This document shows, in pieces, positions 1 through 18,277 of a stretch of DNA of 21,942 bases (position 1 is its first letter; each line of letters starts with the position of its first letter). A program made the position numbers and the translations under genes. This stretch comes from a virus: the IMG/VR virus record IMGVR_UViG_3300020420_000067, positions 1 to 21,942 of that record; one strand, 5' to 3'. The notes beneath the pieces are model-generated. The model was not told the DNA's origin, searched no databases, and saw only the letters and a list, made by a program, of their open reading frames with translations.

Positions 1-3000
1 GCAAAGTCTTCACCACTAGGAGAGTTATTTCTAAGTCTAGGTGCAAGTATGACACCTTGAATCTTACCACCTGAGTTATAAAAACTAGGTGTGGTAGATG
101 GGCCTACCTGTGTTTCAATCTGTGTATTACTAATAACTCTAGTAATTAATGATCCATTGTAATAAGGATCTCCTCCTTTTGGATAGAATTGTTTTGTAGC
201 ATAGTTATCCTGAGAACATGAGAATAAGATAGACTCAGTTTTTAATTTAATATTTCTACCAACACCAGCTGCGGTTGTGATTCCATGAACTGCTGGTAAG
301 AAGGCAGTCATAATACCAATAGATTCATTATAATCCGCATGATTGATATTGTATTCTACTCTTGTAGAAACACCAACATTCAAAGTCACATTGTTAGATG
401 TTACGGCAGTTGGATATAATGCAGCGTTATGTGCAGGGTCAGTCGTACGAGGATATGGATGTTCTGTTGCATATTGATCCATAGAACAAGCATAAACCAA
501 TCCGCCTGTTGCTAAACCAACACTAGTCGTAGTTGATAATCCATGTGAGGTATCAGTGGTTATTGTTGCTAATCCACTGTTTGCGTCATAAGTTGCATTA
601 GTTACATTGAACTTGACTCTAGATGTGATACCTACGTTAATTGTGAATGTATCTGTCGTAGAAGTAACAACACCAACTTCCACATTGTGTATAGGATCAG
701 TTGTTCTTGGATATGTGTGATCAGTGGCATAGTTGTCCTGAGAACATCTCCATGTATATGAATCTGTTGCAAGACCAATAGTGTCTCTAGCAATTAACAT
801 TCCATTAAGATCTGCGTTCTCAAATGTGTGAATATAATTACCACCGCTGATAACAGAGTCAGCAGCTGCAGAAACAAAAATATGTTCTGATTGATTAGAT
901 GATTTTCCTACATCCAGAGTAATTGTAGTATCTGTTGTAGAAGTAATTTTAACAGCAGTATTGTAAGCAGGGTCTGGGCCAGATATACCGCTTGCCCTTG
1001 GGTAGAAGTGATTTGTCGCATGATTATCTAAAGCACAGGTAAATTTGAATCCCCTAGTCTTAAGTTTTACAGAAGTTCCTTTCTTAAGTGTATGAGATCC
1101 AATGTCCACAGTCATCAAACCAGTAAACGGATCAAAAGATCCACTTGTGGGACTGTGGTAAACTAGAGGTGAAGTTCCAACGTTTACAGAGAACTTATCT
1201 AAGTCTACGGTGGTTACTGATAACCACTTTTGATCTGCTGGATCTTTAGCTCTTGGATAACTCTTAATAGTCTTCCGTTTATCCATAAAGCATCTAAATC
1301 TTATGGAATTTCTTTCAAACTGAACTCTATTACCAGTCACCATTCCATGTCCAGCAACTGTACATGTCATAATACCAGATCCAGCATCATAAGTTGCAAA
1401 AGTGACACTCTTAGGTAACGCACCATTAAATCCGTGTACATTGGAGAACACGGTCATGATACCTGTAGTTGCAGTATAGGCTGCAGTAGTAATACCGTAG
1501 TTAACTATTGTTGACACGCCAACATTGATTGTTATAGTGTCAGCAGATGTAGAACCAATACCGACTGATACATTACCACCGATAGGATCATCAGGACGAG
1601 GATATGCGTGTTCTGTTGCAAAATTATCTCTAGCACATGTGAATCTTATAGATGCAGTATTGATACCAACAGTGTCTCTAGCTTTCTTAAGACCACCAGT
1701 AGTTGCACTCTGGAACCAGTGTGCATTTACAATGGTAGATACACCAACATTTACAGAGAATGTATTTACACCGACATGATAGATTGGTAGCCACTCATTC
1801 AAGAATGGATCAGAATATCTTGGGTATGCCTTAGTTGCAGTATATCCATCTAGATCACATTTGAATGAAATTGATTCTAAGTCAAACTTGACATACTCAC
1901 CAGCAACGAAACCATGATTTGCAATGGTTGGTTCTAGTACACCAGTACTAGCATTATACGTCGCCGTCGAAATTGTATGAGCTGAGTGATCGTAATAAGA
2001 GTGTCCAGCACCCACGTTAAGTACAAGTTCACCTGTACCAGCATTGTATGTGGATGTTGATATAGAACGTTCCTGTATTGTAGAAGGCCCAACTCTTACC
2101 TCAAAGGTATCTGTAGTTGCAGAAACGATTCCTAGATTTGTATTATACGCTGGGTCTGTCTTACGAGGATACGCATGAACAGTTGCATAGTTATCTTTAG
2201 CACACTTGAAGTTCAAAGAACCTTCTGCAATTTGAACCAATTGAGTTGGTCTTTCTATAGCATTTGCAACTGATGACTGATACCAGTATGGGCCATAGTC
2301 TCCACCACCAGTAATGACCGCATCAGTTCCAACACCAACTAAAGTATATGGATAATCACCACCAGCAAGAACACCACCAACCGCCACACCCTGATTAGGT
2401 ATGAATGTATAGATGTTTGCTCCACCAGTAGCTCCAACATCAACAGTGAATATTGTACCAGCACAACTAACAATACTTACTGGTTTATCGTAGTAAGGGT
2501 CTTGTGGTCTTGGATAGAAGTGACTAGATTGGAAACCGTCTTGTTCACATCTAAATCCAAGAGCTCCAGCTTTGAACTTGATAGTTTCTCCAGCTTGGAA
2601 ACCATGTAGTCTGTCAAGAGAAACAGTCATGATACCCAACGCTGGTGTATAATCTGCAAACCTTATGTTATATGGAACTATGGTTGTGATACCAGCATTG
2701 ACTGTGATGGTTGTTCCAGCAACACTAACAATAGGTACAGCGGTGTTGTAAGTAGGATCTTTTGATCTAGGATAGTACTTAGTTACAGTGTTTTGGTCAG
2801 CAGTACATGTAAATCCAAGTGAACTATCTCTAAACTTAATACTTTGTCCAGCCTCTAAGTCATGAACTCCAATACTCATTGTCATGATACCTACAGACGG
2901 TGTATAATCCGCTCCAGACACAGTGTAATCTACTCTAGTAGTAATACCAGCAAAGACCTCAAAAGTGTCAGTTGTCTTGTTTGATATTGGAACCCAATTG

Positions 3001-5915
3001 TTACTTAGAGGGTCTGTAGATCTTGGATAGTATTTTGTTGATGTAAATTGATCTAATGAACACTTCCAACCGATAGAATTATCTGCAATTCTAACCATGT
3101 CTCCATTTGAGAATCCATGACTAGGAACTGTTATAGTTAAGATACCTACAATTGGATTATAGTTAGCAGTTGTAAGTGAATGTTGACTAGGTCCTGTCAA
3201 ACCATGTCCATTAAGAGTCAATAATAATGAACCAGTACTAGGAGTATAATCAGCATCTGTAGGTGTGATTTGTGATCCACCAACTATTTGAACAGCATTA
3301 GTATCTGCACTTACAAATTGATGTGCATAATCGCCACCAATTTTTATTGTTTTTTCATCAGAACTTACATATGTGTGTGCATAGTCGCCACCAGCAAAGG
3401 TAGATGTTGCAGTTGCACTGTAGAACCCATGTAGATAAGGTCCTCCAGTTAGTAATGGCTCATCTACTGAACGGAGGAATTGATGAGGATAATCACCACC
3501 ATATATGATTGCCCCAGCAACTGCCTCTTCAAATCTGTGAATGTATTGATTCTTGACACGAGATATACCCACATCCATTGAAAGCCCAGTGCCAGCATAT
3601 CCTGTAATTGGGATAGAAGTATCGTATGCAGTTGATCTACTTCTTGGATAATAATGATCTTTTGCACCATTATCTAAAGCACATGTAAATGCAAGACCAG
3701 TTAAGATAACATCTTTACCTACCTTGTATCCATGAGGTGCTGCAGTCGTTACAGTTAGAACTCCAGTTACATTATCATACAACGCACTGGAAACACCTAA
3801 TGCAGGGTCATAATCGCATGTAAAGGCAATACCAGATAGTATTACACAATCATCTTCTGTAAGATTATGATTCTTTCTAGTTGTGACAGTTGCAATACCA
3901 GATGTCTCATCATACTCAACATGACCAACTTGAACAGCTGGAGCACTGGTAAATGTGACTGCTACACCAGTTACGTTTACAAAGTCATCAGTTTCTAATT
4001 CATGTCCTTCAAATGGTATGAATGAACCAACACCAGCTGTCGCAGTGTGAACACCAGTGGTTGTTACTGCCATACCAATGTTCACTGTAAAGTTTGTTGC
4101 ACTTACAATACCTGTGACACCAAAATATTTTTGTGAATCTGATGGGAAAGTCTTACTTCCAATACTGGTATCAAATACAATATTAGACAACTTGACAACG
4201 TTTGAAGTCGTTAGTCCATGAGCAGATGCTGCAGTAATTGTTGCAACACCAGAGAATGACTCAAAATCTATTTGAGATATATTAATACTTGTTCCGTCCT
4301 GAGCACCATGAGCAGTAACTGTTGTAATACCGTTAATTGGTGTTTGTTCCAGATATTGAATTGTTTTGGGTTTATAGAATCCAGTTCCACCTTCCACAAT
4401 ACTAAAACTTGTAATTATACCCGCTTCTGCTCTGTTTACAACACCACCACTTACATAATTATGTTCAAATGTAGAGATACCAACGAAAGCTCTGAATGTA
4501 TTCGCAGTGTGTCCACTTAAAACATCAAAACCAATTACATTTCTACCTTCCATGATTGCAGTATCAACGCCTGCTTGCACCAATCCCCCGCTAACATAGG
4601 CTAATGGTTGCGTACTGACACCACAATCAACTAATACGTTTAAGTTATCAATAATTTCTACAACAGGATATGCGTCTTCCCTGAAAGTAAATGTAGATAT
4701 TCCCTCTGTTACCTGAACCTGTTTTATTAATAAACTTCTACTTTGGTTAGTTGCAGTTCCTAGATAATGACCACCTGTTACACCAATGGTTGTAATACCA
4801 GTTATGTAATTATAACCAAAGGTATTAATATTTCTTAGAGCAGATACTGGAGTAAATGTAAATCCAGCACCAGTAATTCTTACTCTGTCATTTTCTACAA
4901 ATCCATGAGGACTACTAGTGGTGAATGTACATATACCAGCGATATGATTATAGTCTGCGGTAGATATAGCAACTGCACTTCCTGATGATGTTCCAAGAGT
5001 AGCGCTGAGACTTGCACCATAACCTTGAGATGATCTGACTGTTATTTCTGGTATTGCCCTATATCCTTGTCCCTTTCCTTCTATCTGTATAAATTCAAGA
5101 CTACCAGTTGTTCCAACACCGACTCTTGCAGCAGCTTTGATTGGTAAGTAGTATCCAGAACCTGACTGTAATCCTACTTTGTTAATTCTTCCAGCTCTAG
5201 GAACTCCACTTAGAAAATTAAGTTTGTTTTCTGATGAATCTACGACTTCAAAATCTAGGCCAGGTGTCTGAACAACATTGTTAATTAGAATAAACGGATT
5301 GTTACTTATATCTACTCCTGTATTGACATTGTTGTAGAGAGAAGTGACTACACCTAAGTTCTCACTCACAGTAAATTGTGTGCCTGCAACTCCTGTAAAT
5401 TCTAATGCTATATCATCAAGAATAACGTTTTTATCTGCTGTATCAAATGGATCTAACTTCCTAGAGAACAATCTGCCAGAGAAAGAAGAACTAGTCTTAA
5501 GACCTATAGGACCTGCTTGTCCATATGGTGCATCTGTAAAGAATATATTATCATCTATAATATTATAATCACCAGTAAACACTGAACTAAGTCCAACACC
5601 ATGACTTGTAGATAGAGTTCCAAAGGCACCTCTCTCCACAACCACCTGTGAATTGGTAGTCGTACTGAATACAGGATAGTATCCTACACCAGTGTTAAAT
5701 ATGATAATTTCAGATATTGTACCAACACCACTAATGACAGGGAAAAATACACCTTCTGTTGCTGGTGTGGTTGTTCCCTCAATAGTAATCTTTGGAGGAT
5801 CGGTTGCAGCATACCCTGTACCTCCGTCTAAAACTTCAATTTGGTAAACACCATATACTGAGTTAAATGACGGTCTGAGTAGAGCTCCTGATCCTGGCGT
5901 AACTCTTGTTGACAT
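1..5915 (-). CDS. Giant repeat-rich virion (tail/fibre-like) protein, C-terminus outside the window
   Basis: The frame opens at ATG 5915-5913, preceded by a good ribosome site (GAGG, 5 nt upstream), and stays open to the left edge, giving at least 1971 codons. It starts MSTRVTPGSGALLRPSF, 8 nt after the stop of the 340-aa gene, so the two are probably co-transcribed. The N-terminal third has beta-rich modules of the GGTGY / GKGQGYRAIPEITV type. From about residue 550 it becomes a string of modules of the form xTPxxGIMT..HGF..G..V, followed by a 14-residue C-x2-D-x8-Y-P-R core (12 copies) and DP-x-YN. A block of five 18-residue GGDYxH repeats lies at residues about 788-877. All motif copies sit in one frame, so there is no frameshift across this stretch. 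No transmembrane segment or enzyme motif was noticed. Similar giant proteins are known in cyanomyovirus virions. A role in fibres or host contact is inferred from repeats and position. Confidence 0.88.
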   Translation of the reverse strand, partial: MSTRVTPGSGALLRPSFNSVYGVYQIEVLDGGTGYAATDPPKITIEGTTTPATEGVFFPVISGVGTISEIIIFNTGVGYYPVFSTTTNSQVVVERGAFGTLSTSHGVGLSSVFTGDYNIIDDNIFFTDAPYGQAGPIGLKTSSSFSGRLFSRKLDPFDTADKNVILDDIALEFTGVAGTQFTVSENLGVVTSLYNNVNTGVDISNNPFILINNVVQTPGLDFEVVDSSENKLNFLSGVPRAGRINKVGLQSGSGYYLPIKAAARVGVGTTGSLEFIQIEGKGQGYRAIPEITVRSSQGYGASLSATLGTSSGSAVAISTADYNHIAGICTFTTSSPHGFVENDRVRITGAGFTFTPVSALRNINTFGYNYITGITTIGVTGGHYLGTATNQSRSLLIKQVQVTEGISTFTFREDAYPVVEIIDNLNVLVDCGVSTQPLAYVSGGLVQAGVDTAIMEGRNVIGFDVLSGHTANTFRAFVGISTFEHNYVSGGVVNRAEAGIITSFSIVEGGTGFYKPKTIQYLEQTPINGITTVTAHGAQDGTSINISQIDFESFSGVATITAASAHGLTTSNVVKLSNIVFDTSIGSKTFPSDSQKYFGVTGIVSATNFTVNIGMAVTTTGVHTATAGVGSFIPFEGHELETDDFVNVTGVAVTFTSAPAVQVGHVEYDETSGIATVTTRKNHNLTEDDCVILSGIAFTCDYDPALGVSSALYDNVTGVLTVTTAAPHGYKVGKDVILTGLAFTCALDNGAKDHYYPRSRSTAYDTSIPITGYAGTGLSMDVGISRVKNQYIHRFEEAVAGAIIYGGDYPHQFLRSVDEPLLTGGPYLHGFYSATATSTFAGGDYAHTYVSSDEKTIKIGGDYAHQFVSADTNAVQIVGGSQITPTDADYTPSTGSLLLTLNGHGLTGPSQHSLTTANYNPIVGILTITVPSHGFSNGDMVRIADNSIGWKCSLDQFTSTKYYPRSTDPLSNNWVPISNKTTDTFEVFAGITTRVDYTVSGADYTPSVGIMTMSIGVHDLEAGQSIKFRDSSLGFTCTADQNTVTKYYPRSKDPTYNTAVPIVSVAGTTITVNAGITTIVPYNIRFADYTPALGIMTVSLDRLHGFQAGETIKFKAGALGFRCEQDGFQSSHFYPRPQDPYYDKPVSIVSCAGTIFTVDVGATGGANIYTFIPNQGVAVGGVLAGGDYPYTLVGVGTDAVITGGGDYGPYWYQSSVANAIERPTQLVQIAEGSLNFKCAKDNYATVHAYPRKTDPAYNTNLGIVSATTDTFEVRVGPSTIQERSISTSTYNAGTGELVLNVGAGHSYYDHSAHTISTATYNASTGVLEPTIANHGFVAGEYVKFDLESISFKCDLDGYTATKAYPRYSDPFLNEWLPIYHVGVNTFSVNVGVSTIVNAHWFQSATTGGLKKARDTVGINTASIRFTCARDNFATEHAYPRPDDPIGGNVSVGIGSTSADTITINVGVSTIVNYGITTAAYTATTGIMTVFSNVHGFNGALPKSVTFATYDAGSGIMTCTVAGHGMVTGNRVQFERNSIRFRCFMDKRKTIKSYPRAKDPADQKWLSVTTVDLDKFSVNVGTSPLVYHSPTSGSFDPFTGLMTVDIGSHTLKKGTSVKLKTRGFKFTCALDNHATNHFYPRASGISGPDPAYNTAVKITSTTDTTITLDVGKSSNQSEHIFVSAAADSVISGGNYIHTFENADLNGMLIARDTIGLATDSYTWRCSQDNYATDHTYPRTTDPIHNVEVGVVTSTTDTFTINVGITSRVKFNVTNATYDANSGLATITTDTSHGLSTTTSVGLATGGLVYACSMDQYATEHPYPRTTDPAHNAALYPTAVTSNNVTLNVGVSTRVEYNINHADYNESIGIMTAFLPAVHGITTAAGVGRNIKLKTESILFSCSQDNYATKQFYPKGGDPYYNGSLITRVISNTQIETQVGPSTTPSFYNSGGKIQGVILAPRLRNNSPSGEDF
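177..3683 (-). repeat. Twelve copies of a C-x2-D-x8-Y-P-R protein motif
   Basis: Each core is exactly 42 nt (14 codons) in the frame of the giant gene: 177-218 (ends YPK), 447-488, 705-746, 996-1037, 1251-1292, 1596-1637, 1818-1859, 2163-2204, 2508-2549, 2766-2807, 3021-3062 and 3642-3683. Examples are CSQDNYATDHTYPR, CALDNHATNHFYPR and CAKDNYATVHAYPR. Start-to-start spacing is 222-291 nt in seven intervals, exactly 345 nt in three, and 621 nt in the last. The Cys and Asp are invariant among the copies read. Most copies are followed by D-P and then a beta-rich stretch such as TDTFTINVG. The repetition is at protein level and the DNA has diverged, so this is old duplication rather than a recent tandem array. 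Confidence 0.9.
3285..3554 (-). repeat. Five tandem 18-residue GGDYxH repeats
   Basis: Five consecutive 54-nt units within the giant gene, read from 3554 downward: KNQYIHRFEEAVAGAIIY, GGDYPHQFLRSVDEPLLT, GGPYLHGFYSATATSTFA, GGDYAHTYVSSDEKTIKI and GGDYAHQFVSADTNAVQI. Tyr-4 and His-6 are kept in every unit and an aromatic stands at position 8. Single, more diverged relatives occur elsewhere in the protein: GGNYIHTF near 825-855, and GGDYPY and GGDYGPYW near 2290-2370. The exact 18-residue period suggests a repetitive beta fold or stalk, which is an inference. Confidence 0.85.
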
Positions 5916-5923
5916 TTATTCCT

Positions 5924-6946
5924 CTATATGATGTTGATAGAACTACTGCAATAAACTCTGGTAACTCCAGTGCTATCACGAATTATGCTAAACGTTAGTA
6001 TATCATCATTACTCGTAGCAGGCGGAGGATTACCACCAACCCATTTAACACCGTTTGCAATTTGAGTGCCGTTTACTGTAGTTGCATCACCATAAGTATA
6101 TCCAACTCCAGCATTGTTTATAAGTGTAACTGTAGTTGCTTTACTATTCTGACCACTAACATTAGTGAAAGCCCATGTCGTAATCGAAGTCGTTATACCA
6201 CCTAATATCACAGAACCCTGAGATACATCCATAGTTATTGTGCCGCCTGCACTTACAGTCAGTGTATCACTAAAGTTCCCTACAACTCTTTCCGTAATAT
6301 CGGAATTAAAGTTGACTTGATCCATCAGGGTACTTGCACCACTGACTAGAACATCACCTTGTACATCTAATCTACATGTTGGAGCAGTAGAACCTATACC
6401 AGTATATGCCTCGTTCGTAACTACAAAAGATTTGTTATCGCTTACTGCAGCATCTGATACTCGCAATCCATGTCCAAGTCCTTTTGCAACTGCCCAAATA
6501 GTTGGTCTTTCAGCAGAGAATGATGCAACTTCTAATTGCGATGTAGGTAAAGATGTTCCAATGCCGACCATACCGTCAGCCTTAATTCGGAACATGGTTG
6601 TTGCAGTTCCAACTTCAATAGGGCCATCTGCAATCGCACCAGGCTGTTGAATTGTAATTTTACCAATATCACCATAACTCGTTGTTACAACACCACTCGT
6701 GTTGATGTTTATATCATCAGAAACACTCGCTGCGATTCCAGCAGCAACAGATGTTGATGCAATACCAGCATTTGTAGAATAACCAGCAGTGCTAGCAAAA
6801 GAAACAAAACTTACAAGGTTAGCACCATCTCCGAATATATCGTAGATTTCGTTGAAGTTATTATTGATCTTTATAGTCCCTGCCAATAGGGTATCGCCCG
6901 TCCCATCATTGGGAGCCGAACCAGTACTAATCCCTTGTTTAGCCAT
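5924..6946 (-). CDS. Tail-fibre-like virion structural protein (340 aa)
   Basis: The N-terminus carries the NDGTGDTL...KINNNFNEIYD element (residues 13-36), which recurs at the start of many cyanophage and other phage tail or baseplate-fibre proteins and probably acts as an attachment segment. It is followed by a low-complexity Ala/Ser/Gly stretch (about 50-75) and two copies of the fibre-shaft motif GIGTxxPTxxLxV (residues 128-140 VGIGTSLPTSQLEV and 183-195 GIGSTAPTCRLDV). The C-terminal third is beta-rich and ends in SSSINII. The gene lies between the 3002-aa protein and the giant protein and has its own perfect late promoter box 22 nt before the ATG. The ribosome site is weak. It is probably a trimeric fibre or fibre adaptor, though it has no T4 gene name I can defend. 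The start is chosen because the conserved N-terminal element begins there. Confidence 0.85.
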   Translation of the reverse strand: MAKQGISTGSAPNDGTGDTLLAGTIKINNNFNEIYDIFGDGANLVSFVSFASTAGYSTNAGIASTSVAAGIAASVSDDININTSGVVTTSYGDIGKITIQQPGAIADGPIEVGTATTMFRIKADGMVGIGTSLPTSQLEVASFSAERPTIWAVAKGLGHGLRVSDAAVSDNKSFVVTNEAYTGIGSTAPTCRLDVQGDVLVSGASTLMDQVNFNSDITERVVGNFSDTLTVSAGGTITMDVSQGSVILGGITTSITTWAFTNVSGQNSKATTVTLINNAGVGYTYGDATTVNGTQIANGVKWVGGNPPPATSNDDILTFSIIRDSTGVTRVYCSSSINII

Positions 6947-6977: not shown

Positions 6978-9900
6978 TTAATATGGAGGGTTATCATCCA
7001 TAGTAGCAAATGTGTTGTCAATTGTGGTCACACTTGAGTTCACTCTTTTGGTATCATAATAAAAACCAGTAGCTACTGTACTGTTTGAAACAGCAGTCCT
7101 TGCCTGAGCAAATGTTGAGTCACCTACTTGTTTTACCTTCAAGAATTCGTCATCTAACTTGATGACATCTCCCTTTGAAATAGATGCAATACCAGTCGTT
7201 ACTGATATTCCCTGATCTGTTGGTCCGACAGAATCGGCAACTTGGACAGATAACTTCTTGTTCGTAATAGGAGTTTGTATAATATTATCAATTAAGATAA
7301 GAGCTTGTTTATTTGGTTCTGCAACCTTGAGGAAGTGTGTTCCAGTTCCTAGACCAGTAAAGGTGAAAGGAAGCGAAGTTGATAAACCAGAAATTCTAAA
7401 CTTAACATCATCTATCTTTTGTACAAATAAAGTGTCAGGCATAACATTAGTTCCTAACTCCACAGGAGAAAGTAAGATGTTATTGGTTGGTGTTGTTCCC
7501 CCAAGGTATGTACCAGCGATAGAAATAATATTAGTAGAAGCATATCCAGTTCCTCCAGTTACAACCTCAACCTCAGTAACATCCAAATTACTATCCCTAG
7601 TAACATTAAATGTTGCACCTGTTCCGCCAAACTCTGGTACAGTTGATGGAACATTAGTGTATGTTGTTGTAATACCAGTTCTAGATCCTGTTGTTTTAGT
7701 AACTGGGAAGGTAAGATTATTAGCTGGGGTTGCACCACCCAAATATGTACCAGCGATACTTACGTTGTCGGTAACGAAGTAATCAGTTCCACCATTAGTT
7801 AGAACTACTGCTGTTGATATACATTGTCCAGTGGTTTGATCAAAATCAAACCTAACTTGGAATGTAGCACCACTACCTCTAGTAGAGATGCCAGGCACAC
7901 CACCTTCTGCCATTCCAAATCCATAAAATCTAAACGCTGGGCCAGGAGGATTCTCTGTGACTGCAATTCCAGTAACAGGGCCTGGAATCTGTATGTTATA
8001 TCCATTTTCATACATTGCACTACCACCGACACCAGATGTTTTAACAGCCATGACAATATCTCTAGATCCTGTAGTATGAGAAGTAGTAGCAATACCAATC
8101 TTAGAACCACCTTGAGTGTCTAATAAAATTGATTGTCCACTCTGGAAATTATGACCCACAATACTAATAAGGTTGGATGCAATATCTACATCGGCAGATG
8201 CTGCAGCATTATATGATTTCTTGAATACAGGTGATCCGCCTACAGTCAATCCAAACTGTTTACTACCAACTAGTGTTCCTGTTCTGTCATGTGATCCATT
8301 AAAACCAGAAGATATATCATCAAGATTCAAGACTTTATTAGTCTTGTTCATAATGAAACTCTTAATTGGTCTGCCTTCTGGGAAGAAGATTCTTTGTACA
8401 GAACCATTTTCTAATTGATCATCCTCAGTAACAACTGCAAAGTTATCTCTCTTGCCCATATACATTTCATTATCAATATTGACAATCAACTTAACGCTTG
8501 TATCTACTGCCTTGACTCTCATGTTAGTAGACTTAGCAATTCCTACAGTAGCGACATTGGCAATAGGATCACTTTCTATAATCAGATCCGAGAACTCTAA
8601 GAAACCTGATGGGTGAACAATAGATTTAACTGATTCTTTCCATGTTGAATATGGTAGTTTACTCTTGATTGAGTATGAGAACTTCTGGAAATAGAAGTTA
8701 TCCGATAACCTCTGACTGAAATCGTTGAGAATACCAACGTTCATGTCATTCTTAGAAACTTTATCTCTAGTTACGCCAAGAGTAGTTCTGACTCTAAATC
8801 TATTAACATCTCTAACTGAACCAAGAAGTTGTGACACCTCACCAAACAACTTATCGCCAGGCAAGAGAGTACCAATGGTATCTCTCAATCTAAGTTGACT
8901 GATCTTACCATTCCAACCATTCTCAGCAACAAAACCTTCAAACTTAGTGGATGTGACTTTTTCACCAGACAGGTACTTAGCATCATCAATAATTGTCATA
9001 TTGAACTTAGCCATGTCATTGTAGTTGACAATAGAACCTAAAGTAAAGTCATCATCATAATCACCCAGTGTTACAGTAGAGATGCCAGGAGCATTTGCCA
9101 TACTGAATGTGACAGTGGCATTTTCAGTACTAACTCCTGTTACATTGAAGAATGAGAAGTCATAGTCGGCAGAGTTAAAGTTAGCCTCTCCATTAAGTTT
9201 AGATGCTGGTGTTATTCTACAGTTTTCTACAAACACTTGATCACCAATAGCAAATGGTAACTTAGTTTCTGTACTTGCAAATCCAGTTGTTACTGGTCTA
9301 TTGAACTGTGCATCCAAAAGAAGTTCAGCAGTTACAGTTGTACCACTGTGAGTAATCGCATCAATGTCATATCCATTAGAATTATTAGTTGTTATAATAC
9401 TAAGAGGTTCACTAAACTCAAAAGCATTTTGAATTATATTAACCTTATCTACAGATCCCCCTGATATAGTTGCTTCAATTGACACATTACTATTACCTCT
9501 TACTGCAAGTTTAGGAGGTTGATTATATCTTATACCACCATCTATTACTCGTATCTCATCCATCCTTGCAATACCACTTACATCAACTATAGCAGGGACA
9601 CTTAAGAATGGCAATAGTGTAGGGTCAGTTGGATAGTCAAATCCATCTTTGATTCTTTCTACAATGTCTATTTGACCAATCTCAGGAGAAGAAACTTTCA
9701 CAATGGCATCTTGACCTTGGGTACTTGCAAAACCAATGACTCTAGGTAAGATAGTATATCCTTTGCCTGGGAAATTGATTTTAGTAGAGTTGATAGGCCC
9801 TCTTGCATTTTTAGATGCAGTGCTATATGTGATTGTACTTACACCAACTCTCGATATAAGTTTCTGTGGCTCAGGAGGTTTTTCTTTTAAGTTGAAAGTA

Positions 9901-12900
9901 AATGTAGTATCATCTTTATTGATGATTGCATGATCAGTCTTTAGAACAACATTTTTGAAAGTAATATTGTTTCTACCTACAACTTCGGTGTCAGATGTGC
10001 CATATAACTTTCTATTGTCAGAAGGAACTATAGGAGTTAGACTATAGAATGTCTTTGAAGGCCAATTGTTTGTTGTATTGATAGTTACTGTGGCGTTTGC
10101 ATTTCCAGATATGCCGCTTCTTGTAATATTAAATCCAGTATCATTAGTTCCGTTAACATCTAATTTTTCTTTAAAAGTAATATCTTCAAAGAAGTCAAGT
10201 CTCATGTCTAAAAGACTTTGATCAGATACGTCAAATGTGATTGTATTACCAGTCGTAAACTCTAGTGGTGGATTGACTTTTGCAATGTAACTTAAATTAT
10301 TAGAGGATGCTTCACTAACAGTTGATATTGATACTGGGTTAGAATCAAATACATCTGCCTTATACTTACAAAGTTGAATGGCATCACTACTTTCTCTAAG
10401 AATAAAATACGTCTCATTATTGACTAAACCAGTAATAGTATTACCATTGTTATAGAATACAACCTTATCTCCACTCTGTAGAGAATCATCGGGTATTGTA
10501 ATTTCAGTCAAGTCTGTTGAGAAAGCAGATACGGCAAATCCTATTCTACCTGTAGTGACTTTAGCAATCACTGGATCGTATCTAACTACAGTTGTTTCGG
10601 TAGATTGTGGTAAAGCGTCTAATGTGATAACATCATCAGTCAATAATCCATGAGCTGATGTTACTCCCACTTCACCAAAGAATCTTTCTACCTTAGATGT
10701 TACTTTAGGGAAGTTAGTTGTAAATGAATGTGCAAATCCAGAATTAGAAGCCACATTGTAGAACCATACTGCATCACCTGTAGTAGGAATACCAGTAGTG
10801 GACAATCCAATATAATCTGGTTCAAAGTTAACTGCATATACATCACCATTATTAGGAAGAACCTCTGTACCAACACCAGATGTTGCTCCAGCAGATACTT
10901 TCGCCCATACAAGAGAAGTTCCACCAATACCCATATTATAGGTTAGCTTTTGTCCTGTAAAGAAAGTATGATCTTTAATATAGATTCTTTGTTGAGGAAC
11001 GAATCTATTTTCAACTGTTTGTACCGTGCTTAGACCAGTAAGAGGTAATGTATAGTGTGTGCCAGTAGAACCAACACCAACTGTCTGTTGTGGGTTGAAA
11101 TAGGTGATAGTGTTCTCAAAGGTGTATCTCATCAATGTAGAGAATCCTATTGGGAATGAGAACTTCTTCGGTTTCAAAATAATATTGTTTGTTCCGACTG
11201 CATGAGTCATTGCAGCACCAACAAAGTTTTCTCTGTTTACAAAGAACCTAGAGAACTGTGAATCGATAGCAGTAATGGTAAACGACTCAGTTCCAATTCC
11301 AATAGTGTCATTTACAGCAAAACCACTTACATCAGTAACAAAGATGGAAGTACTAGGGCCTGTTGTGCTTACATTACCTAACTCTACTGAAAGACCACAA
11401 GTTTTGTTATTAACGGTAACTTTCTTAGCTCCATTGAACTCTGTGAAGTCAGATGTGCTAATACCACTGATTATTAGAGTTTCACCGTTTGCAACCTCGT
11501 GTGGAATACTTGTTATACCTACAATTTCATTTTTATTCTTTACTAGCTCAGTTTCTGTAAAAGTAGTGACTCCAATCTGCACTGTGGAGATAGGTTTACC
11601 CAAAACAGATCCAACGACAATATTTGCTCCAGTTCCATCGGTTCCAGTGCCGTCTAGGTCTAATACATCATCTACTTTGTATCCATCCCCTCTAGAGAAG
11701 ATAGTTACGGAAGAAATACCAGAACTCTTGATTTTAGTGACTTCAAACTCTTGTTTTAAGGCATCTCTGACATCATCTATCAAATCATAGTCAGAATTAC
11801 CATATGAGAGATAATATGGAGCTACGTTTCTTGTAAGTTCTCTTTCAGTGATGTCAATATCCTGATTGAAGAAAGTTACGAAGTTTTCATCGATAGGAGT
11901 GTCTTTAAATGATCCACCAATCAAATATGGGAATTTTGGTTTGGCAATACCACTAGAATCAACATCTACGCTGTAGAAGTAAGCATATACACCATCTGGA
12001 TACTGTGGAGTCACACAATAGCGTCCACCATGCACATCTAGGTCTCCTGAGTTGTCAAAGATGTAATCATTGGTGAAATATCCAAAAGCAAAGCCAGGAG
12101 GTCTCAGACCCGACCTTAGAGTAGTATCAAGAATGTATCCTGACTGTAATCTTTGTATTGCTCCTCCTGTTGGAGTCTGATAACCATAAGGACCGTAAAT
12201 TGGATTACCATCATAAGCAAATCCAAGTATAGGTGAGTGGAAGGCGTTAGGTGTCTCAATATTACCCGAATCAATGTTATCTCCAAGTTGGAATCTAAGT
12301 TTTTGTGGAGGATAGATACCGATTGTCTGTAATTGGAAGGCAGGGTTCGTACTTGGTTTAGTAAGTAGCGAATCTTCGTCACTTATGATAGCATCGTTCT
12401 TTAAAACTTGGTTTATTGTCCACTCTTTAACATCTGCTATAAATTTAGCATTTTTACCTCTATTTTGAAGATCCAGAGTTGTTGTCGCTGAATCATAACC
12501 AATACCACCATCAAGAATCGTAATACCAGTTATTTTATTGTTAGTAATGATTGGTTTGATATCTGCAAAACTACCTGTGGGACTATAGACGATAATATCC
12601 GAGTCTGGACGGTATCCTTTACCAGCAGCAAGTATCTGAACGTCTACAATTGATCCGTCAATGATAATCGGCTTCAATAGTGCTGTAGATACCACTGTAG
12701 CGATTCCAACATCAGGTCTCCTGTGGAAATCCATGATATTAGTGCAACCGTAACCAACACCACCCTCTTCTAAGTAAACACTTTCAATTTCACCAAACAC
12801 TAAGGGTTCGAGCTCTGGTTTGATAATAGTTGTAGCAGCGATACCAGATAAACTCTCTACGTTTACTACTATAGGTGGGTATTTTATAGTATGTTTGCCT

Positions 12901-15900
12901 GATCCAAATCCACTAATTACAACTGTTTTATTTTTGTTATAATTCGTTAGATTTCTTTGTGAGGAAACACCAACATCACATAATCTGAATCTATTGCTGT
13001 CAATTACCTTAACTGCATATTGTGTTGTTGTAGAAAGACCGCTTGCAACAGTTCCTTCAGTAGAATATTCAACAATCTCACCATTTCTGAAATTATGATT
13101 ATATGCAAGTACATAATCATCAGATGTACTAATACCAGACTGTGTATCTCCGTTTACTGATCTACCTTGTATAATTACTTTCTTATTTGAGTACCCAGAA
13201 CCAGAGTTTTTGACATAAATCTTGGTTATTGTATTTTTAGCTAACAATGAAGTAAACTTATGGAAACCATAACTGATATTTCCAATGTCTACTGTATTGA
13301 TGCCTACTTTTGCATCTTCTGGTGTTTTGAATAACTTAATTGTCTTCTCATTGACGACACCAGCATAGTATGTCGATCCATCAACGATATTAACGATAGG
13401 TGGGTTGCCTCTAGAGTCATATACTATAGCTTCACCTTCTTCAAAGTTATGTCTCTCTGGAAAGGTGACACTTTCATCAAATGTATCAACTGATGTACCA
13501 TCAGCCTTGAAGTTGGATACTAGATTACCTCTGACAAGGTTAGATTCAAGAACTGCACCACTTCCGTTACCACCACTAACAGTGATCTTGGGTTTCTCTT
13601 GATATCCGATGCCAGGAGTAACTAATTTGACTTCTCTGAAAGATCCAGATACGTTAGCATGAGCAACAGCACCAAATCCCTGAGAATCATTAATAATCAG
13701 TGGAGGACCTGTAATAACATCATAGTCTTGGCCTGGATTTGTAACTTCTAGCTTGGATATGTTACCATGAAAGATCTGTTCATCAAAAACAGTGGGTGGA
13801 AATACCTCAACACCATTAGCCAGCAAACCAACTGGTCTATTTTTTACCTCTCTCTTGTTTGGGTCATCAAATAAATTTTTCTGCTTGTAGTAAGGATACT
13901 TTCTAAGAATTTTCTGGTTCTTGAGTGTTTTATTCTCCCAACCTGACTTGTAGATGTATTGTCCAGCAGTGTTAGTCTTTATAGCGATGTATTTTTTAGA
14001 AAATACGTCAGCTCCACTGAAAGATAGATTAAAGTCAGTCTCGTTGATTTTAGTTACAAAATAAACACCAGTATTGATGCCACTGTTGGTTGTATTGTCC
14101 CAATAGATCTTATCACCAGTTACATAGTTGTGAGCTAGGAGTTGATTAGGGGTCGCTCCCACCGTGAAGGAGGGATCATACGATTGAATGGTATAAGTAA
14201 ACCCACCACCGAGTAAAGGTGTCCCAAAACCGTCTGTAACCTCTATTGCGCTGGATTTTACAAATACTTTATTGTCAGTTGCAAAGATTGGATAGTTTGG
14301 TAGACCAGCAGAAGCGATATAGAAGAATTCTTCGTTCTTATCTAAGTAACTGTTTTGAACACCAACAGGAAACTCATCTACACCAGCAAAGTAGTCGGAA
14401 TTGTGTTCTGCCTTAGTAACAGTCTTTGTAATTGTTGTTAAGTTAGCTGGAACTGTTCCAGATGTTTGTATGACAATGGTATTTGAGTAAATCTTAGAAA
14501 GGTTAGTTGCATCATACTCAATATCTTTGACTGTTACTTGAATTTGATCGCCATTATCATTTTTAAGAATTAATATCTCATCAATGTAGAAAACAATCGA
14601 ATCAAACAACTTAAGTCTGTATGTATTGACGTTTACCTGATTGATGGAAGAAATATTGTGAGACGAAGGTATGTTATAGATCCAGTTGTTGAACTGTGGA
14701 GTATCACCTAAGTCTCTACCGAAAGAAAGTAACTTTAGATTGTCACCAATCTGCATATTGGTTGATTGACTTGTATCAGCTTCATCAATAACATTAACAA
14801 GTCTAAACTCCATCAATGATGTCTGTCCAAATCCAGCATAAGAGTATGCAAGCTTGTTTTCAAGAACATCAGCACCAAAAACTAATGAAGTGGTAACACC
14901 AGAGATTCCTAAGAACTGGTTTATTGTTTTATCAGTGTAAGATAGAGTTAGAAAGTTATCACCAGCTCTGGGTCTTACTAAAAGAGATCCACTTTGACCA
15001 AATCCAACCGTAGAGTCAACTACAAGACTGGTCGCATCTTCATTAGTGACCTCTAGTGCTTTTGTTTTACCAGGCACTTGGAAATTACCATCAAATGATG
15101 TGGAGTCAAGAGACATCTCATAGAAGTCTGTCTGGTTGATCGGTCTGTACTCAACATTATAGATTGAAGCACTTACAGTACCAATACCAGATACGTCTTG
15201 ATACAAGAAATTACCAACTGACTGTAAAGGTTGTGCAGCTGGAGTTAAGTTCTCAAGAAGAACGTGTTTAGTTTTGAAATATACGTTTGCAGAAGAAACA
15301 ATAGTCTGATCAATTGGTTTGAGCAGTTCAATATCTTCACCATACAAAAGTTTGAAAAGAATCTGATATGAAGAGTCAGTTCCCTTCGACATGTAGAAGT
15401 CTTTTGCCCTAGTTAGAACGTTTGTTACAGATGTTCCACTTACGAAGTTTCTATTTTCAAATCCAGGCAGAAACTCTGTTTTAAACTTTGTAAAAAATTC
15501 TTGTAGGAACAGATTACTTAAATTAGTAACTGTTGCACCAGTATTATGTGCAGATGCAGAACTTTGTAGGAAGTTTAGGAACTCAGCATTGTCCTCTTGT
15601 GATATCTGATCGATACCACTGAATCCTCTTGCACATCCAGTAAAGGATGTAGAAGTTTTACCAGTATATGTTATTATCTCTTCGCCAATCTTAAGTAAAC
15701 CGTATGTATCTGGCCAACCAGTAGTTGAAGTTACGTTGATTGTGGTTGATGCAGCAAAAATAGGAGCAGTAAGAGTGGTTGATGCTATTAAACTTTCACT
15801 ATTGAACGCACTTATCTGTCTATACTCAGGAAGATTGTTCGCTAGGTCAATTACACCAGACTTATGTTCTTGTGAAGCGTAATATTGTTTTAAAAAGCTC

Positions 15901-15986
15901 GCAAACTTAGGAGACTCCTGATTTAAAAATTCTGGAATCTGCGATTTTATGACATGAGAGATTTTTACTCTTTTTATTTCTGCCAT
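6978..15986 (-). CDS. 3002-aa baseplate-associated virion protein with a YHYH domain
   Basis: The ATG directly abuts the TAA of gp6 (TAAATG), with AGG overlapping the gp6 end as ribosome site. The N-terminus contains FLKQYYASQEHKSG and NLPEYRQI (31-57), then GEEIITYTGKTSTSFTGCARG (101-121, an inserted beta module), FFTKFKTEFLPG (164-175) and KGTDSSYQ..LYGEDIELLKP (201-224). This layout is familiar from large cyanomyovirus structural proteins. Many beta modules of the type GGxGYxxxPxIxxxGxxGxGA follow. Residues about 1245-1342 form a YHYH-family domain: GFAYDGNPIYGPYGY at 1255, then DLDVHGGRYCVTPQYPDG and YAYFYSVD. The C-terminal 300 residues hold a duplicated module with SIAGTYLGG. T4 has gp7 (1032 aa) after gp6, so a wedge or peripheral baseplate role is likely by position. 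No clear gp7 similarity can be seen, so no symbol is given. Confidence 0.9.
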   Translation of the reverse strand: MAEIKRVKISHVIKSQIPEFLNQESPKFASFLKQYYASQEHKSGVIDLANNLPEYRQISAFNSESLIASTTLTAPIFAASTTINVTSTTGWPDTYGLLKIGEEIITYTGKTSTSFTGCARGFSGIDQISQEDNAEFLNFLQSSASAHNTGATVTNLSNLFLQEFFTKFKTEFLPGFENRNFVSGTSVTNVLTRAKDFYMSKGTDSSYQILFKLLYGEDIELLKPIDQTIVSSANVYFKTKHVLLENLTPAAQPLQSVGNFLYQDVSGIGTVSASIYNVEYRPINQTDFYEMSLDSTSFDGNFQVPGKTKALEVTNEDATSLVVDSTVGFGQSGSLLVRPRAGDNFLTLSYTDKTINQFLGISGVTTSLVFGADVLENKLAYSYAGFGQTSLMEFRLVNVIDEADTSQSTNMQIGDNLKLLSFGRDLGDTPQFNNWIYNIPSSHNISSINQVNVNTYRLKLFDSIVFYIDEILILKNDNGDQIQVTVKDIEYDATNLSKIYSNTIVIQTSGTVPANLTTITKTVTKAEHNSDYFAGVDEFPVGVQNSYLDKNEEFFYIASAGLPNYPIFATDNKVFVKSSAIEVTDGFGTPLLGGGFTYTIQSYDPSFTVGATPNQLLAHNYVTGDKIYWDNTTNSGINTGVYFVTKINETDFNLSFSGADVFSKKYIAIKTNTAGQYIYKSGWENKTLKNQKILRKYPYYKQKNLFDDPNKREVKNRPVGLLANGVEVFPPTVFDEQIFHGNISKLEVTNPGQDYDVITGPPLIINDSQGFGAVAHANVSGSFREVKLVTPGIGYQEKPKITVSGGNGSGAVLESNLVRGNLVSNFKADGTSVDTFDESVTFPERHNFEEGEAIVYDSRGNPPIVNIVDGSTYYAGVVNEKTIKLFKTPEDAKVGINTVDIGNISYGFHKFTSLLAKNTITKIYVKNSGSGYSNKKVIIQGRSVNGDTQSGISTSDDYVLAYNHNFRNGEIVEYSTEGTVASGLSTTTQYAVKVIDSNRFRLCDVGVSSQRNLTNYNKNKTVVISGFGSGKHTIKYPPIVVNVESLSGIAATTIIKPELEPLVFGEIESVYLEEGGVGYGCTNIMDFHRRPDVGIATVVSTALLKPIIIDGSIVDVQILAAGKGYRPDSDIIVYSPTGSFADIKPIITNNKITGITILDGGIGYDSATTTLDLQNRGKNAKFIADVKEWTINQVLKNDAIISDEDSLLTKPSTNPAFQLQTIGIYPPQKLRFQLGDNIDSGNIETPNAFHSPILGFAYDGNPIYGPYGYQTPTGGAIQRLQSGYILDTTLRSGLRPPGFAFGYFTNDYIFDNSGDLDVHGGRYCVTPQYPDGVYAYFYSVDVDSSGIAKPKFPYLIGGSFKDTPIDENFVTFFNQDIDITERELTRNVAPYYLSYGNSDYDLIDDVRDALKQEFEVTKIKSSGISSVTIFSRGDGYKVDDVLDLDGTGTDGTGANIVVGSVLGKPISTVQIGVTTFTETELVKNKNEIVGITSIPHEVANGETLIISGISTSDFTEFNGAKKVTVNNKTCGLSVELGNVSTTGPSTSIFVTDVSGFAVNDTIGIGTESFTITAIDSQFSRFFVNRENFVGAAMTHAVGTNNIILKPKKFSFPIGFSTLMRYTFENTITYFNPQQTVGVGSTGTHYTLPLTGLSTVQTVENRFVPQQRIYIKDHTFFTGQKLTYNMGIGGTSLVWAKVSAGATSGVGTEVLPNNGDVYAVNFEPDYIGLSTTGIPTTGDAVWFYNVASNSGFAHSFTTNFPKVTSKVERFFGEVGVTSAHGLLTDDVITLDALPQSTETTVVRYDPVIAKVTTGRIGFAVSAFSTDLTEITIPDDSLQSGDKVVFYNNGNTITGLVNNETYFILRESSDAIQLCKYKADVFDSNPVSISTVSEASSNNLSYIAKVNPPLEFTTGNTITFDVSDQSLLDMRLDFFEDITFKEKLDVNGTNDTGFNITRSGISGNANATVTINTTNNWPSKTFYSLTPIVPSDNRKLYGTSDTEVVGRNNITFKNVVLKTDHAIINKDDTTFTFNLKEKPPEPQKLISRVGVSTITYSTASKNARGPINSTKINFPGKGYTILPRVIGFASTQGQDAIVKVSSPEIGQIDIVERIKDGFDYPTDPTLLPFLSVPAIVDVSGIARMDEIRVIDGGIRYNQPPKLAVRGNSNVSIEATISGGSVDKVNIIQNAFEFSEPLSIITTNNSNGYDIDAITHSGTTVTAELLLDAQFNRPVTTGFASTETKLPFAIGDQVFVENCRITPASKLNGEANFNSADYDFSFFNVTGVSTENATVTFSMANAPGISTVTLGDYDDDFTLGSIVNYNDMAKFNMTIIDDAKYLSGEKVTSTKFEGFVAENGWNGKISQLRLRDTIGTLLPGDKLFGEVSQLLGSVRDVNRFRVRTTLGVTRDKVSKNDMNVGILNDFSQRLSDNFYFQKFSYSIKSKLPYSTWKESVKSIVHPSGFLEFSDLIIESDPIANVATVGIAKSTNMRVKAVDTSVKLIVNIDNEMYMGKRDNFAVVTEDDQLENGSVQRIFFPEGRPIKSFIMNKTNKVLNLDDISSGFNGSHDRTGTLVGSKQFGLTVGGSPVFKKSYNAAASADVDIASNLISIVGHNFQSGQSILLDTQGGSKIGIATTSHTTGSRDIVMAVKTSGVGGSAMYENGYNIQIPGPVTGIAVTENPPGPAFRFYGFGMAEGGVPGISTRGSGATFQVRFDFDQTTGQCISTAVVLTNGGTDYFVTDNVSIAGTYLGGATPANNLTFPVTKTTGSRTGITTTYTNVPSTVPEFGGTGATFNVTRDSNLDVTEVEVVTGGTGYASTNIISIAGTYLGGTTPTNNILLSPVELGTNVMPDTLFVQKIDDVKFRISGLSTSLPFTFTGLGTGTHFLKVAEPNKQALILIDNIIQTPITNKKLSVQVADSVGPTDQGISVTTGIASISKGDVIKLDDEFLKVKQVGDSTFAQARTAVSNSTVATGFYYDTKRVNSSVTTIDNTFATMDDNPPY
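7455..7885 (-). repeat. Two-copy module with SIAGTYLGG near the C-terminus of the 3002-aa protein
   Basis: Two consecutive modules of about 80 residues share GATFxV..., VVxxGGTxY, SIAGTYLGGxTPxNN and a following P-V. The conserved 11-nt piece GTACCAGCGAT (plus strand) occurs at 7747-7757 and 7510-7520, exactly 237 nt (79 codons) apart. This points to an in-frame internal duplication of a beta module. Confidence 0.75.
11960..12255 (-). other. YHYH-type domain inside the 3002-aa protein
   Basis: The encoded stretch (residues about 1245-1342) contains HSPILGFAYDGNPIYGPYGY, a long insert, then DLDVHGGRYCVTPQYPDGVY and YFYSVD. These are the hallmark blocks of the YHYH domain family, which is found in secreted bacterial proteins and in large cyanophage structural proteins. 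The eponymous Y-H-Y-H string itself is not present here. The domain's biochemical function is not established. Confidence 0.75.
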
Positions 15987-17861
15987 TTACCTTGTGTAGA
16001 TTGTTTCGCTAGCGTAACTAGATGTTGTGACGTATGATGTAGCAGATGTATTCTCACCAGAGGATACAACATCAGGAAGTGCATTTACTGTACTGTTGGT
16101 AACGTCTAATTGTAAGTACAGATCTTTGAGGGCGATAACATCATTAGAATCAGGTATTGCTTCAACTTGAATCAATCCATTTGCCAATGTAGACCCTGTT
16201 ATATTTACCACATCTAAATTGATCTCGCCATGAACGTAATCTACAGTCCCAGCATCGTTCTTGACGATAAGAGGAAGGTTGTTTACAAGTTTAAAGAACA
16301 CAAGTTTACCAAATGCAGTTCCAGCCGTAGGAATATCACCAAGATATAAAGTTCCGTCTATACCACTAACGGTAAATCCTGTAGAACGTATGCCATATCC
16401 GTTTGGTTGGTCATAAAAGGCATTTCCGTAGCAAAGTTCATAAGTTGCGAATGTATTGAGTTCAGGCGTAAGATCTCTTCTCATCTTAACTCTAGTAATG
16501 TTAGAAGTTACACCTCTTCCAGAGTCATCAATCAATCCAACCACTTTAGAGTATTTGAATCTGCCACCAAAGTCATTAATGTCAGATGATTTTGAATATG
16601 CAGTCAAAGCCTTGGTTACTGATGTAATTAATTCTGTTGCATCACTGACGGAGTTAGTGTTATAGTAAACAGAAGTATCGACTTCAACATAAAGATACTT
16701 AAGATCAATAATTTCGGGTTTGATACCAGCAATTGAATATTGTTTCAGTTGTCTAGAGATATCATCTTTTGTGATCTGTGAAAGGAACGAACCATTTCGA
16801 GGTTTGATGGAAATGAACACTTTTCCATACTCAGGTGGATCTAACTCCTCCCCACCGTAGGCGGTCACAGACTCGACGTTAGGATATACGAATGGAATGA
16901 TACCAGAATAGTCACTTGCCGTTACTGCACGGTATTGTGATGAGTATATGCGAGGTGCCAGATATTTAATTGAACTTGTTGCCTCAATATCGTCTCCCAT
17001 TGAAGCTTTATTGGTAGTTGATATAAGTGAGATACCAGTTGTGACAGATAATCCTTGATCATCTTCTAAAATTCCAACAAATGAGAAATTTTTAGCATCA
17101 TTTCCAAGTCTTCCGTTCGTTACGATGTAAGAAACCGTGACGATTGCTCCAGCAGGCGGTTTTTTACCTAAAATTCCGTCTCCAAATAAAATTTCGTATT
17201 GTTCATCTTCAATTTCTTGAATTAAGAAGAGTTTTGACGTAGCATCAACTCTTAAAATGTTATCATATAGCGTATAAATCTCTTTTGTCGTAGATTCGAC
17301 TGTAACACGAATAGAAGTTGTGTCAACATTAGCATTTGGAAGGATAAAACGCTGATTTGGTTGTGAATAATCAATCTGAAAAGTTTTTTGAAGGTAAACG
17401 CCTTCATAAATGTTCAAATTTTCAAAAAGTGCGATATTATTTTCGTTTGTTGTAGCAACAAAGTCGTCTGGAATTGAAAAAATGTAAGATCCGTTGACTT
17501 GATTACCCAATGCAACTTGTCCAGCCTTCAAAGTTACGATTCTAGTGTCATTACTGTACATATCAACACTAAAGTTGATAGTTGCCATTGCAGATCTACT
17601 TGATCTTGGTACATAACCAATGTTTCTAGCAAGTGCAACCACGTTTTCACGCAAAGTCGCACTGTCGAGGAAGCACTCATTGACTGCCATGTTAGTATTA
17701 TAGGCAGTAATGTAAGTATTGTACGCTAAAAGATCAATTAGAGTTGAAAAGTTCGATCCTTCAAAGTCAAAATCAGCAAAATCACTGTTTACTCTGAGGT
17801 AATCTTTGATTTGAGCTCTAAGATCAGCAAAGTCTAGGTTTGTAAACTGGTTAAATGACAT
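15987..17861 (-). CDS. 6: Baseplate wedge protein gp6
   Basis: The protein is 624 aa, close to T4 gp6 (660 aa), and belongs to the gp6/gpJ baseplate family that forms the inner wedge ring of contractile tails. Visible family features are the N-terminal LDFADLRAQIKDYLR, DLLAYNTYITAYNTNMAVNE (43-62), LARNIGYVPRSSRSA (77-91) and the core FGDGILGKKPPAGAIVTVSY (226-245). A late domain around SDYSGIIPFVYPNVESVTAYGGEE resembles the gpJ middle region, and the C-terminal part is Thr/Ser-rich. The start ATG shares one base with the stop of gp25 (TAATG) and the stop abuts the next gene, so the genes are translationally linked. The gp25-gp6 order is the same as in T4. Confidence 0.95.
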   Translation of the reverse strand: MSFNQFTNLDFADLRAQIKDYLRVNSDFADFDFEGSNFSTLIDLLAYNTYITAYNTNMAVNECFLDSATLRENVVALARNIGYVPRSSRSAMATINFSVDMYSNDTRIVTLKAGQVALGNQVNGSYIFSIPDDFVATTNENNIALFENLNIYEGVYLQKTFQIDYSQPNQRFILPNANVDTTSIRVTVESTTKEIYTLYDNILRVDATSKLFLIQEIEDEQYEILFGDGILGKKPPAGAIVTVSYIVTNGRLGNDAKNFSFVGILEDDQGLSVTTGISLISTTNKASMGDDIEATSSIKYLAPRIYSSQYRAVTASDYSGIIPFVYPNVESVTAYGGEELDPPEYGKVFISIKPRNGSFLSQITKDDISRQLKQYSIAGIKPEIIDLKYLYVEVDTSVYYNTNSVSDATELITSVTKALTAYSKSSDINDFGGRFKYSKVVGLIDDSGRGVTSNITRVKMRRDLTPELNTFATYELCYGNAFYDQPNGYGIRSTGFTVSGIDGTLYLGDIPTAGTAFGKLVFFKLVNNLPLIVKNDAGTVDYVHGEINLDVVNITGSTLANGLIQVEAIPDSNDVIALKDLYLQLDVTNSTVNALPDVVSSGENTSATSYVTTSSYASETIYTR

Positions 17862-18277
17862 TATACTCTAGTTGATTGTAGGATAAAGTCTACTTGTTGT
17901 CTTGGAGCTGTAATTCCGACTATATCGTAGGCTATTGTTACGTTTAATATTGTAGTATCTTGCGGATAAACCACTCTTGTCACGATATTTGTGACTCTAG
18001 GTTCGTAGTTTTCAAGTAAAATTAAAATTTCATCCTCTAAATCCAAGGCAATGTCTTGAGTTGCTTGTTCAAACATGAAATCTTCTATCTTACTACCCAA
18101 AAGTGGGTTGTAAAAACGTTCTCCTATTCGTGTTCTGACGAGATTCTGTACAGAACGCTTGATTGCGTCCTCATTATAGAAGACTCCAATGTCATCTGTA
18201 ATGGGATGCTTAGCAAAAGAGAGGCTAATATCTCTAAAATCCAAGCTCGTTCTTAAATTGTCGTCAATACTAGGCAT
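17861..18277 (-). CDS. 25: Baseplate wedge protein gp25 (lysozyme-like fold family)
   Basis: The protein is 138 aa; T4 gp25 is 132 aa. The family (gp25 / GPW) starts wedge and sheath assembly at the tail baseplate. Diagnostic blocks are FAKHPITDDIGVFYNEDAIKRSV (21-43), TRIGERFYNPLLGSKIEDFMFE (49-70) and the EPR motif in YEPRVTN (91-97), followed by a beta-rich end with the IAYDIVG block and QQVDFILQS. No lysozyme activity is expected for the phage family members. The ATG shares one base with the TAA of the preceding 46-aa gene (TAATG), with AAGGA as ribosome site. It is in the same operon as gp6. Confidence 0.95.
   Translation of the reverse strand: MPSIDDNLRTSLDFRDISLSFAKHPITDDIGVFYNEDAIKRSVQNLVRTRIGERFYNPLLGSKIEDFMFEQATQDIALDLEDEILILLENYEPRVTNIVTRVVYPQDTTILNVTIAYDIVGITAPRQQVDFILQSTRV

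Follow-up and report, generated by a model that had tools for sequence, protein, structure and literature searches.

A small repeat unit with a near-invariant Cys, predicted to fold as a beta-barrel, in giant virion proteins of T4-like marine cyanophages

Beta-barrel repeats are a known kind of component in phage tail proteins; what is unusual in the repeat analyzed here is its very strict Cys signature. Its closest described relatives are protein clusters and annotated genes of phages. PHROG 1276 (unknown function), PHROGs 701 and 18802 (virion structural) and PHROG 5342 (tail fiber) were each matched by 125-128 of 137 diverse units; unit 3 alone matched the same PHROGs at E-values of 3e-13 to 1e-7, while the whole protein matched them in up to 13 stretches. 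These PHROGs are, however, unnamed whole-protein clusters and describe neither the repeat unit nor its fold and Cys signature. Among individual proteins, SSSM7_103 of Synechococcus phage S-SSM7 (YP_004324156.1; full length 3,001 aa) is 78% identical over 1,971 aa and carries the same twelve cores, its name of "gp7, baseplate wedge subunit" being an annotation only. SSM1_102 of phage S-SM1 (T4-GC 969) lies at the corresponding place after gp6 and contains two C-x2-D-x7-YPR units, but only these two in 6,180 aa. Mass spectrometry detected SSM1_102 in purified S-SM1 virions (PMC3037559), in agreement with an earlier note on this DNA that had taken the repeat protein for a phage virion protein. 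No Pfam or NCBIfam model covered the unit above cut-off, and no paper describing it was found in the literature searched.

The whole stretch of DNA analyzed (the window) is a 21.9-kb piece of a T4-like marine cyanophage that is kin to S-SSM7, and all genes discussed lie on its minus strand. Their order is gp25 (17861-18277), gp6 (15987-17861), a 3,002-aa YHYH-domain protein (6978-15986; Pfam E 2e-19), a T4 gp9/10-type connector (5924-6946) and the repeat-bearing giant virion protein (3..5915), whose 1,971-aa open reading frame is cut by the window end. Contig L003 carries a 2,996-aa open frame of which residues 1-1,971 are identical to the window protein. The YHYH protein resembles PHROG 2885, a baseplate wedge cluster. 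In S-SSM7 the gene order is the same and gp8 comes next after the repeat protein gene, which thus has the place of T4 gp7, between gp6 and gp8 in a T4-like baseplate cluster. The gp7 family was absent among the Pfam and NCBIfam hits of the repeat protein, and no PDB chain matched it by sequence at E<=10. Since one 5,195-aa gene (gp7) fills the gp6-gp8 interval in P-SSM2, the YHYH protein and the repeat protein appear to be fused in that phage.

Exactly twelve 14-residue cores of the form C-x2-D-x7-Y-P-[RK] run from position 3683 down to 177 in a single minus-strand frame. With positions numbered from the Cys, these are core 1 (CALDNGAKDHYYPR, 3642..3683, H at +9), core 2 (CSLDQFTSTKYYPR, 3021..3062, K at +9), core 3 (CTADQNTVTKYYPR, 2766..2807, K at +9), core 4 (CEQDGFQSSHFYPR, 2508..2549, H at +9), core 5 (CAKDNYATVHAYPR, 2163..2204, H at +9), core 6 (CDLDGYTATKAYPR, 1818..1859, K at +9), core 7 (CARDNFATEHAYPR, 1596..1637, H at +9), core 8 (CFMDKRKTIKSYPR, 1251..1292, K at +9), core 9 (CALDNHATNHFYPR, 996..1037, H at +9), core 10 (CSQDNYATDHTYPR, 705..746, H at +9), core 11 (CSMDQYATEHPYPR, 447..488, H at +9) and core 12 (CSQDNYATKQFYPK, 177..218, Q at +9, where S-SSM7 has H). 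All twelve have the same Cys, Asp, Tyr and Pro, and the last position is Arg in 11 cores and Lys in one, just as the earlier note had described, except that its spacing of eight residues between Asp and Tyr must be corrected to seven, the number that a 14-residue core contains. Successive cores are 621, 255, 258, 345, 345, 222, 345, 255, 291, 258 and 270 nt apart. The core motif was not found on the forward strand of the window, and shuffling the protein 2,000 times never produced even one core.

Cys is scarce elsewhere in the protein. The 1,971-aa fragment has 18 Cys residues, of which 12 lie inside cores, and the remaining protein contains 0.33% Cys. One Cys outside the cores, Cys700 (3816..3818, minus strand), belongs to a degenerate half-unit, FTCDYDPALG, just ahead of unit 1. 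A relative of the unit with a short hairpin (FDTSIGSKTFPS, 4071..4265, minus strand) lacks the Cys, Asp(+3) and YPR; several orthologues have a relative of this type in the corresponding position, which makes it useful as a natural control when asking what the Cys does.

Per-unit alignments contained 7 to 49 orthologues for units 1-11; unit 12 was left uncounted because no orthologue passed the filter. Across these eleven units, the Cys was present in 437/437 aligned orthologous units, 43 of which use the other codon, TGC, and the Asp in 434/437, again with both codons in use. The DNA of the twelve cores is on average 59% identical (range, 38-81%). Since Cys and Asp are kept despite codon changes and diverged core DNA, the earlier suggestion that selection acts on the protein is supported. 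Position +9 is fixed as His among the orthologues of units 1, 4, 5, 7, 9, 10 and 11 and as Lys among those of units 2, 3, 6 and 8, and this fixation by unit position indicates that the duplications are older than this clade. Over all units, Lys at +9 accompanies Met or Leu at +2 and Ala or Ser at +7.

The whole unit spans ~75-90 residues, with the core in its second half, and has the consensus A-x-Y-x-P-x-T-G ... H-G-L-x2-G ... S-L-x-F-T-C-x2-D-x5-[HK]-x-Y-P-R-x2-D-P ... I-x2-V-T ... T-x-T-V-N-V-G. A profile search of the kind that the earlier note had proposed recovered 2,049 units in 236 of 311 loci, and a single unit used as query matched 302 annotated phage records, all of them named as Synechococcus or Prochlorococcus phages, cyanophages or unassigned marine viruses. 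The conserved Cys is, as had been claimed, unusual for this protein, yet the domain that carries it is widespread. The unit is carried both by baseplate-wedge giants after gp6 (P-SSM2 gp7, 5,195 aa; S-SM1, 6,180 aa; P-RSM6, about 8,570 aa) and by tail-fibre-like genes that stand apart (Syn1_101, S-SCSM1 gp026). Proteins with one unit only exist, and many phages, S-RIM2 and S-RIM8 among them, have the unit at a single place. The unit is absent from S-SZBM1_208, a virion protein of 6,619 aa encoded at the same genomic position as the repeat protein, and so is not required there. Cellular genomes gave 23 pattern matches, but no relative of the unit pair was confirmed at any of them.

The P-RSM6 protein (CPXG_00128; locus L071) had 18 units in the stretch read. 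P-RSM6 is listed among the cyanophages reported without long tail fibres or their genes (PMC9146016), and giants such as its about 8,570-aa virion protein may stand in for long tail fibres. Many distant loci reached with the P-RSM6 query matched only query residues about 650-990, and the three whole records checked all lacked the unit. On the L026 contig (G003:C1; 41155-42057), a second unit-bearing open frame (1,484 aa) is present besides one of 3,005 aa; because these frames are separate, the module may serve in two structures of the same virion.

AlphaFold2 models were built from the sequences of the window and related loci, the one-unit model on 137 diverse rows. The earlier note had called for a structure prediction of two adjacent units; whole units 3 and 4 (2406..2933, minus strand) were modelled as two small beta-barrels with a mean pLDDT of 92.8. 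The one-unit model reached a pLDDT of 91.8, and the barrels of the two-unit model are arranged as in an independent S-SSM7 viral model (TM 0.86). In the model of unit 3 alone (2682..2918, minus strand), the predicted strands are E3-6, E11-15, E26-28, E34-37, E46-49, E60-67 and E70-74; the Cys is residue 38, directly after E34-37, where the hairpin of E34-37 and E46-49 has its base, the Asp lies in a short turn, and [HK]-x-Y is on strand E46-49. We read this fold as a probable closed small barrel from the order of the modelled strands and from weak fold matches.

Solved structures gave no fold match at E<=0.001 and no significant sequence match. The top names (eIF2 gamma, alphavirus envelope proteins and V-ATPase) look like chance small-barrel resemblance, none being significant. 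Pfam PF16190 (E1_FCCH) matched the N-terminal strand region weakly, at 24.2 bits with the whole protein as query against a gathering threshold of 29.5; only 8 of 137 units matched it at E<=0.1, and the best Pfam stretch excludes the Cys/YPR hairpin. In agreement with this weak Pfam match, E1 FCCH structures were also among the weak fold matches (mouse E1 2v31 at rank 7, probability 0.44; Uba6 at rank 11, probability 0.35). Because the Pfam match is below cut-off, the hairpin is uncovered and no fold match reaches E<=0.001, we draw no connection to ubiquitin chemistry.

Conservation was quantified across 302 non-redundant units (70% identity). The Cys is present in 99% and Pro(+12) in 100%, while Asp(+3) is present in 86% and His or Lys at +9 in 88% (Lys in 29%). 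When the Cys column was masked in the profile, 315/319 non-redundant units still had the Cys, as did 312/318 when the whole motif was masked; the invariance is therefore not an artefact of the search. Asp(+3) and His/Lys(+9) are lost jointly (p=1e-7), and Tyr(+11), Arg(+13), Asp(+16) and Pro(+17) form a second covarying block (p from 9e-9 to 2e-23), all of these p-values ignoring the shared ancestry of units. Cys and Pro(+12) persist where either group is lost: FSCTYSGG-GNGDYPR keeps the Cys without Asp and without His/Lys, and FSCTSNGG-GNLASPS keeps it without Asp/His/Lys and without Tyr-Pro-Arg. A reading of Cys and Asp as one site is not supported, since the Asp is missing from 14% of units with the Cys kept and is lost instead with the +9 residue.

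The pattern of residues around the Cys points to its orientation. Large hydrophobic residues occupy -11, -9, -4 and -2 in 99-100% of the 302 units and +11, +23 and +25 in 93-98% (95-100% for the set -11, -9, -4, -2 and +11), while position -1 is polar in 98%; by this strict inside/outside alternation, the Cys falls on the hairpin face that looks toward the core. The Cys was present in 599/600 YPR units versus 0/13 distinct short-hairpin units of the FPS type, and its absence from the short-hairpin relative indicates that it goes with the long hairpin.

Taken together, the sequence patterns and models lead us to favor, with a probability of roughly 0.6, a reading in which the Cys is a buried structural thiol of the long hairpin and the conserved charged residues are ion-pair clamps, which would agree with the structural role suggested earlier for a Cys that is under extreme constraint. 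The units would be small beta-barrels strung along a very large baseplate or tail-fibre protein of T4-like marine cyanophages, with the motif forming one extended beta-hairpin per barrel. Strand F-T-C would lead into a short helical turn holding the Asp; the chain would then return as strand [HK]-x-Y and run on to a fixed Pro-Arg-x2-Asp-Pro corner. We infer that the Cys side chain points inward alongside Leu(-4), Phe(-2) and Tyr(+11), its small thiol being buried and unpaired and closing the core at the hairpin base, and that the loop is clamped on its outer side by two ion pairs, probably Asp(+3)-His/Lys(+9) and Arg(+13)-Asp(+16). Arrayed in tandem, the barrels would then extend as an arm on the baseplate or fibre. 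The choice of His or Lys at +9, fixed per unit across orthologues, is not explained by simple ion pairing. Furthermore, occasional Ala, Ser or Val would usually be expected at a core position with a purely structural role, and the occurrence of the Cys at 99%, stricter than the neighboring Phe (88%), hints at some use of the thiol.

Such a use could be covalent, with the unit Cys stapling the arm after assembly in oxic seawater through a disulfide between chains or through a different bond, such as one to the +9 Lys. The near-invariance of the Cys beyond that of its hydrophobic neighbors would fit this reading, as would the exposure of phage fibres to oxidizing water and the position of the +9 His/Lys, which in the modelled register would be on the same hairpin face two positions off. 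However, each unit has one conserved Cys column rather than the two of a disulfide-stabilized domain, which excludes the intra-unit form of the cross-link that the earlier note had raised; the Cys lies on the core face, many phages carry the unit at a single place, a Lys-Cys bond cannot use His instead of Lys, and no partner residue covaries, the Cys itself being unvarying. We therefore consider a covalent role unlikely, although inter-chain or Cys-Lys bonding keeps some probability because the Cys varies less than core residues ordinarily do. It is also rather improbable that each barrel has an active thiol, at the hairpin base next to His/Lys and Asp, that acts as a covalent or redox-switched staple after assembly; if so, the phage arm would carry a dozen regularly spaced thiol switches of two sub-types set by unit position.

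The earlier note had also offered metal binding, in which Cys, Asp, His(+9) and perhaps Tyr would hold Zn or Fe in each unit. Asp and His/Lys are mutually dependent, and Cys, Asp and His occur together in 55% of non-redundant units, rather than in all of them as in a metal-binding repeat, but the only plausible third ligand, +9, is so often Lys, always so in units 2, 3, 6 and 8 of the orthologues, and the Cys so often stands without the Asp that we regard a metal site as very unlikely. Iron has been proposed in other phage tail fibres, with an HxH motif for it, but the unit consensus contains no HxH. The YPR hairpin could instead be a receptor-contacting surface whose residues are kept for host binding, given that some unit-bearing proteins are annotated as tail fibres (Syn1_101, S-SCSM1 gp026). 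Variation is expected of receptor-binding loops, however, whereas this hairpin is the most conserved part of the unit across Synechococcus and Prochlorococcus phages and its hydrophobic face would be turned inward, making this reading highly improbable as well.

Giants of up to about 8,500 residues are part of the baseplate and fibres in common ocean cyanophages and are mostly annotated "structural" or "hypothetical"; a searchable domain with a sharp signature (F-x-C and Pro at +12) makes them easier to annotate and offers structural biologists a target of 80 residues, and a reactive thiol, if there is one, would be a new way to harden phage fibres. Two genes 5' of gp25 in the window were judged by eye: the product of 19708-20358 resembles a 2-oxoglutarate/Fe(II) oxygenase, and that of 18874-19632 is glycosyltransferase-like.
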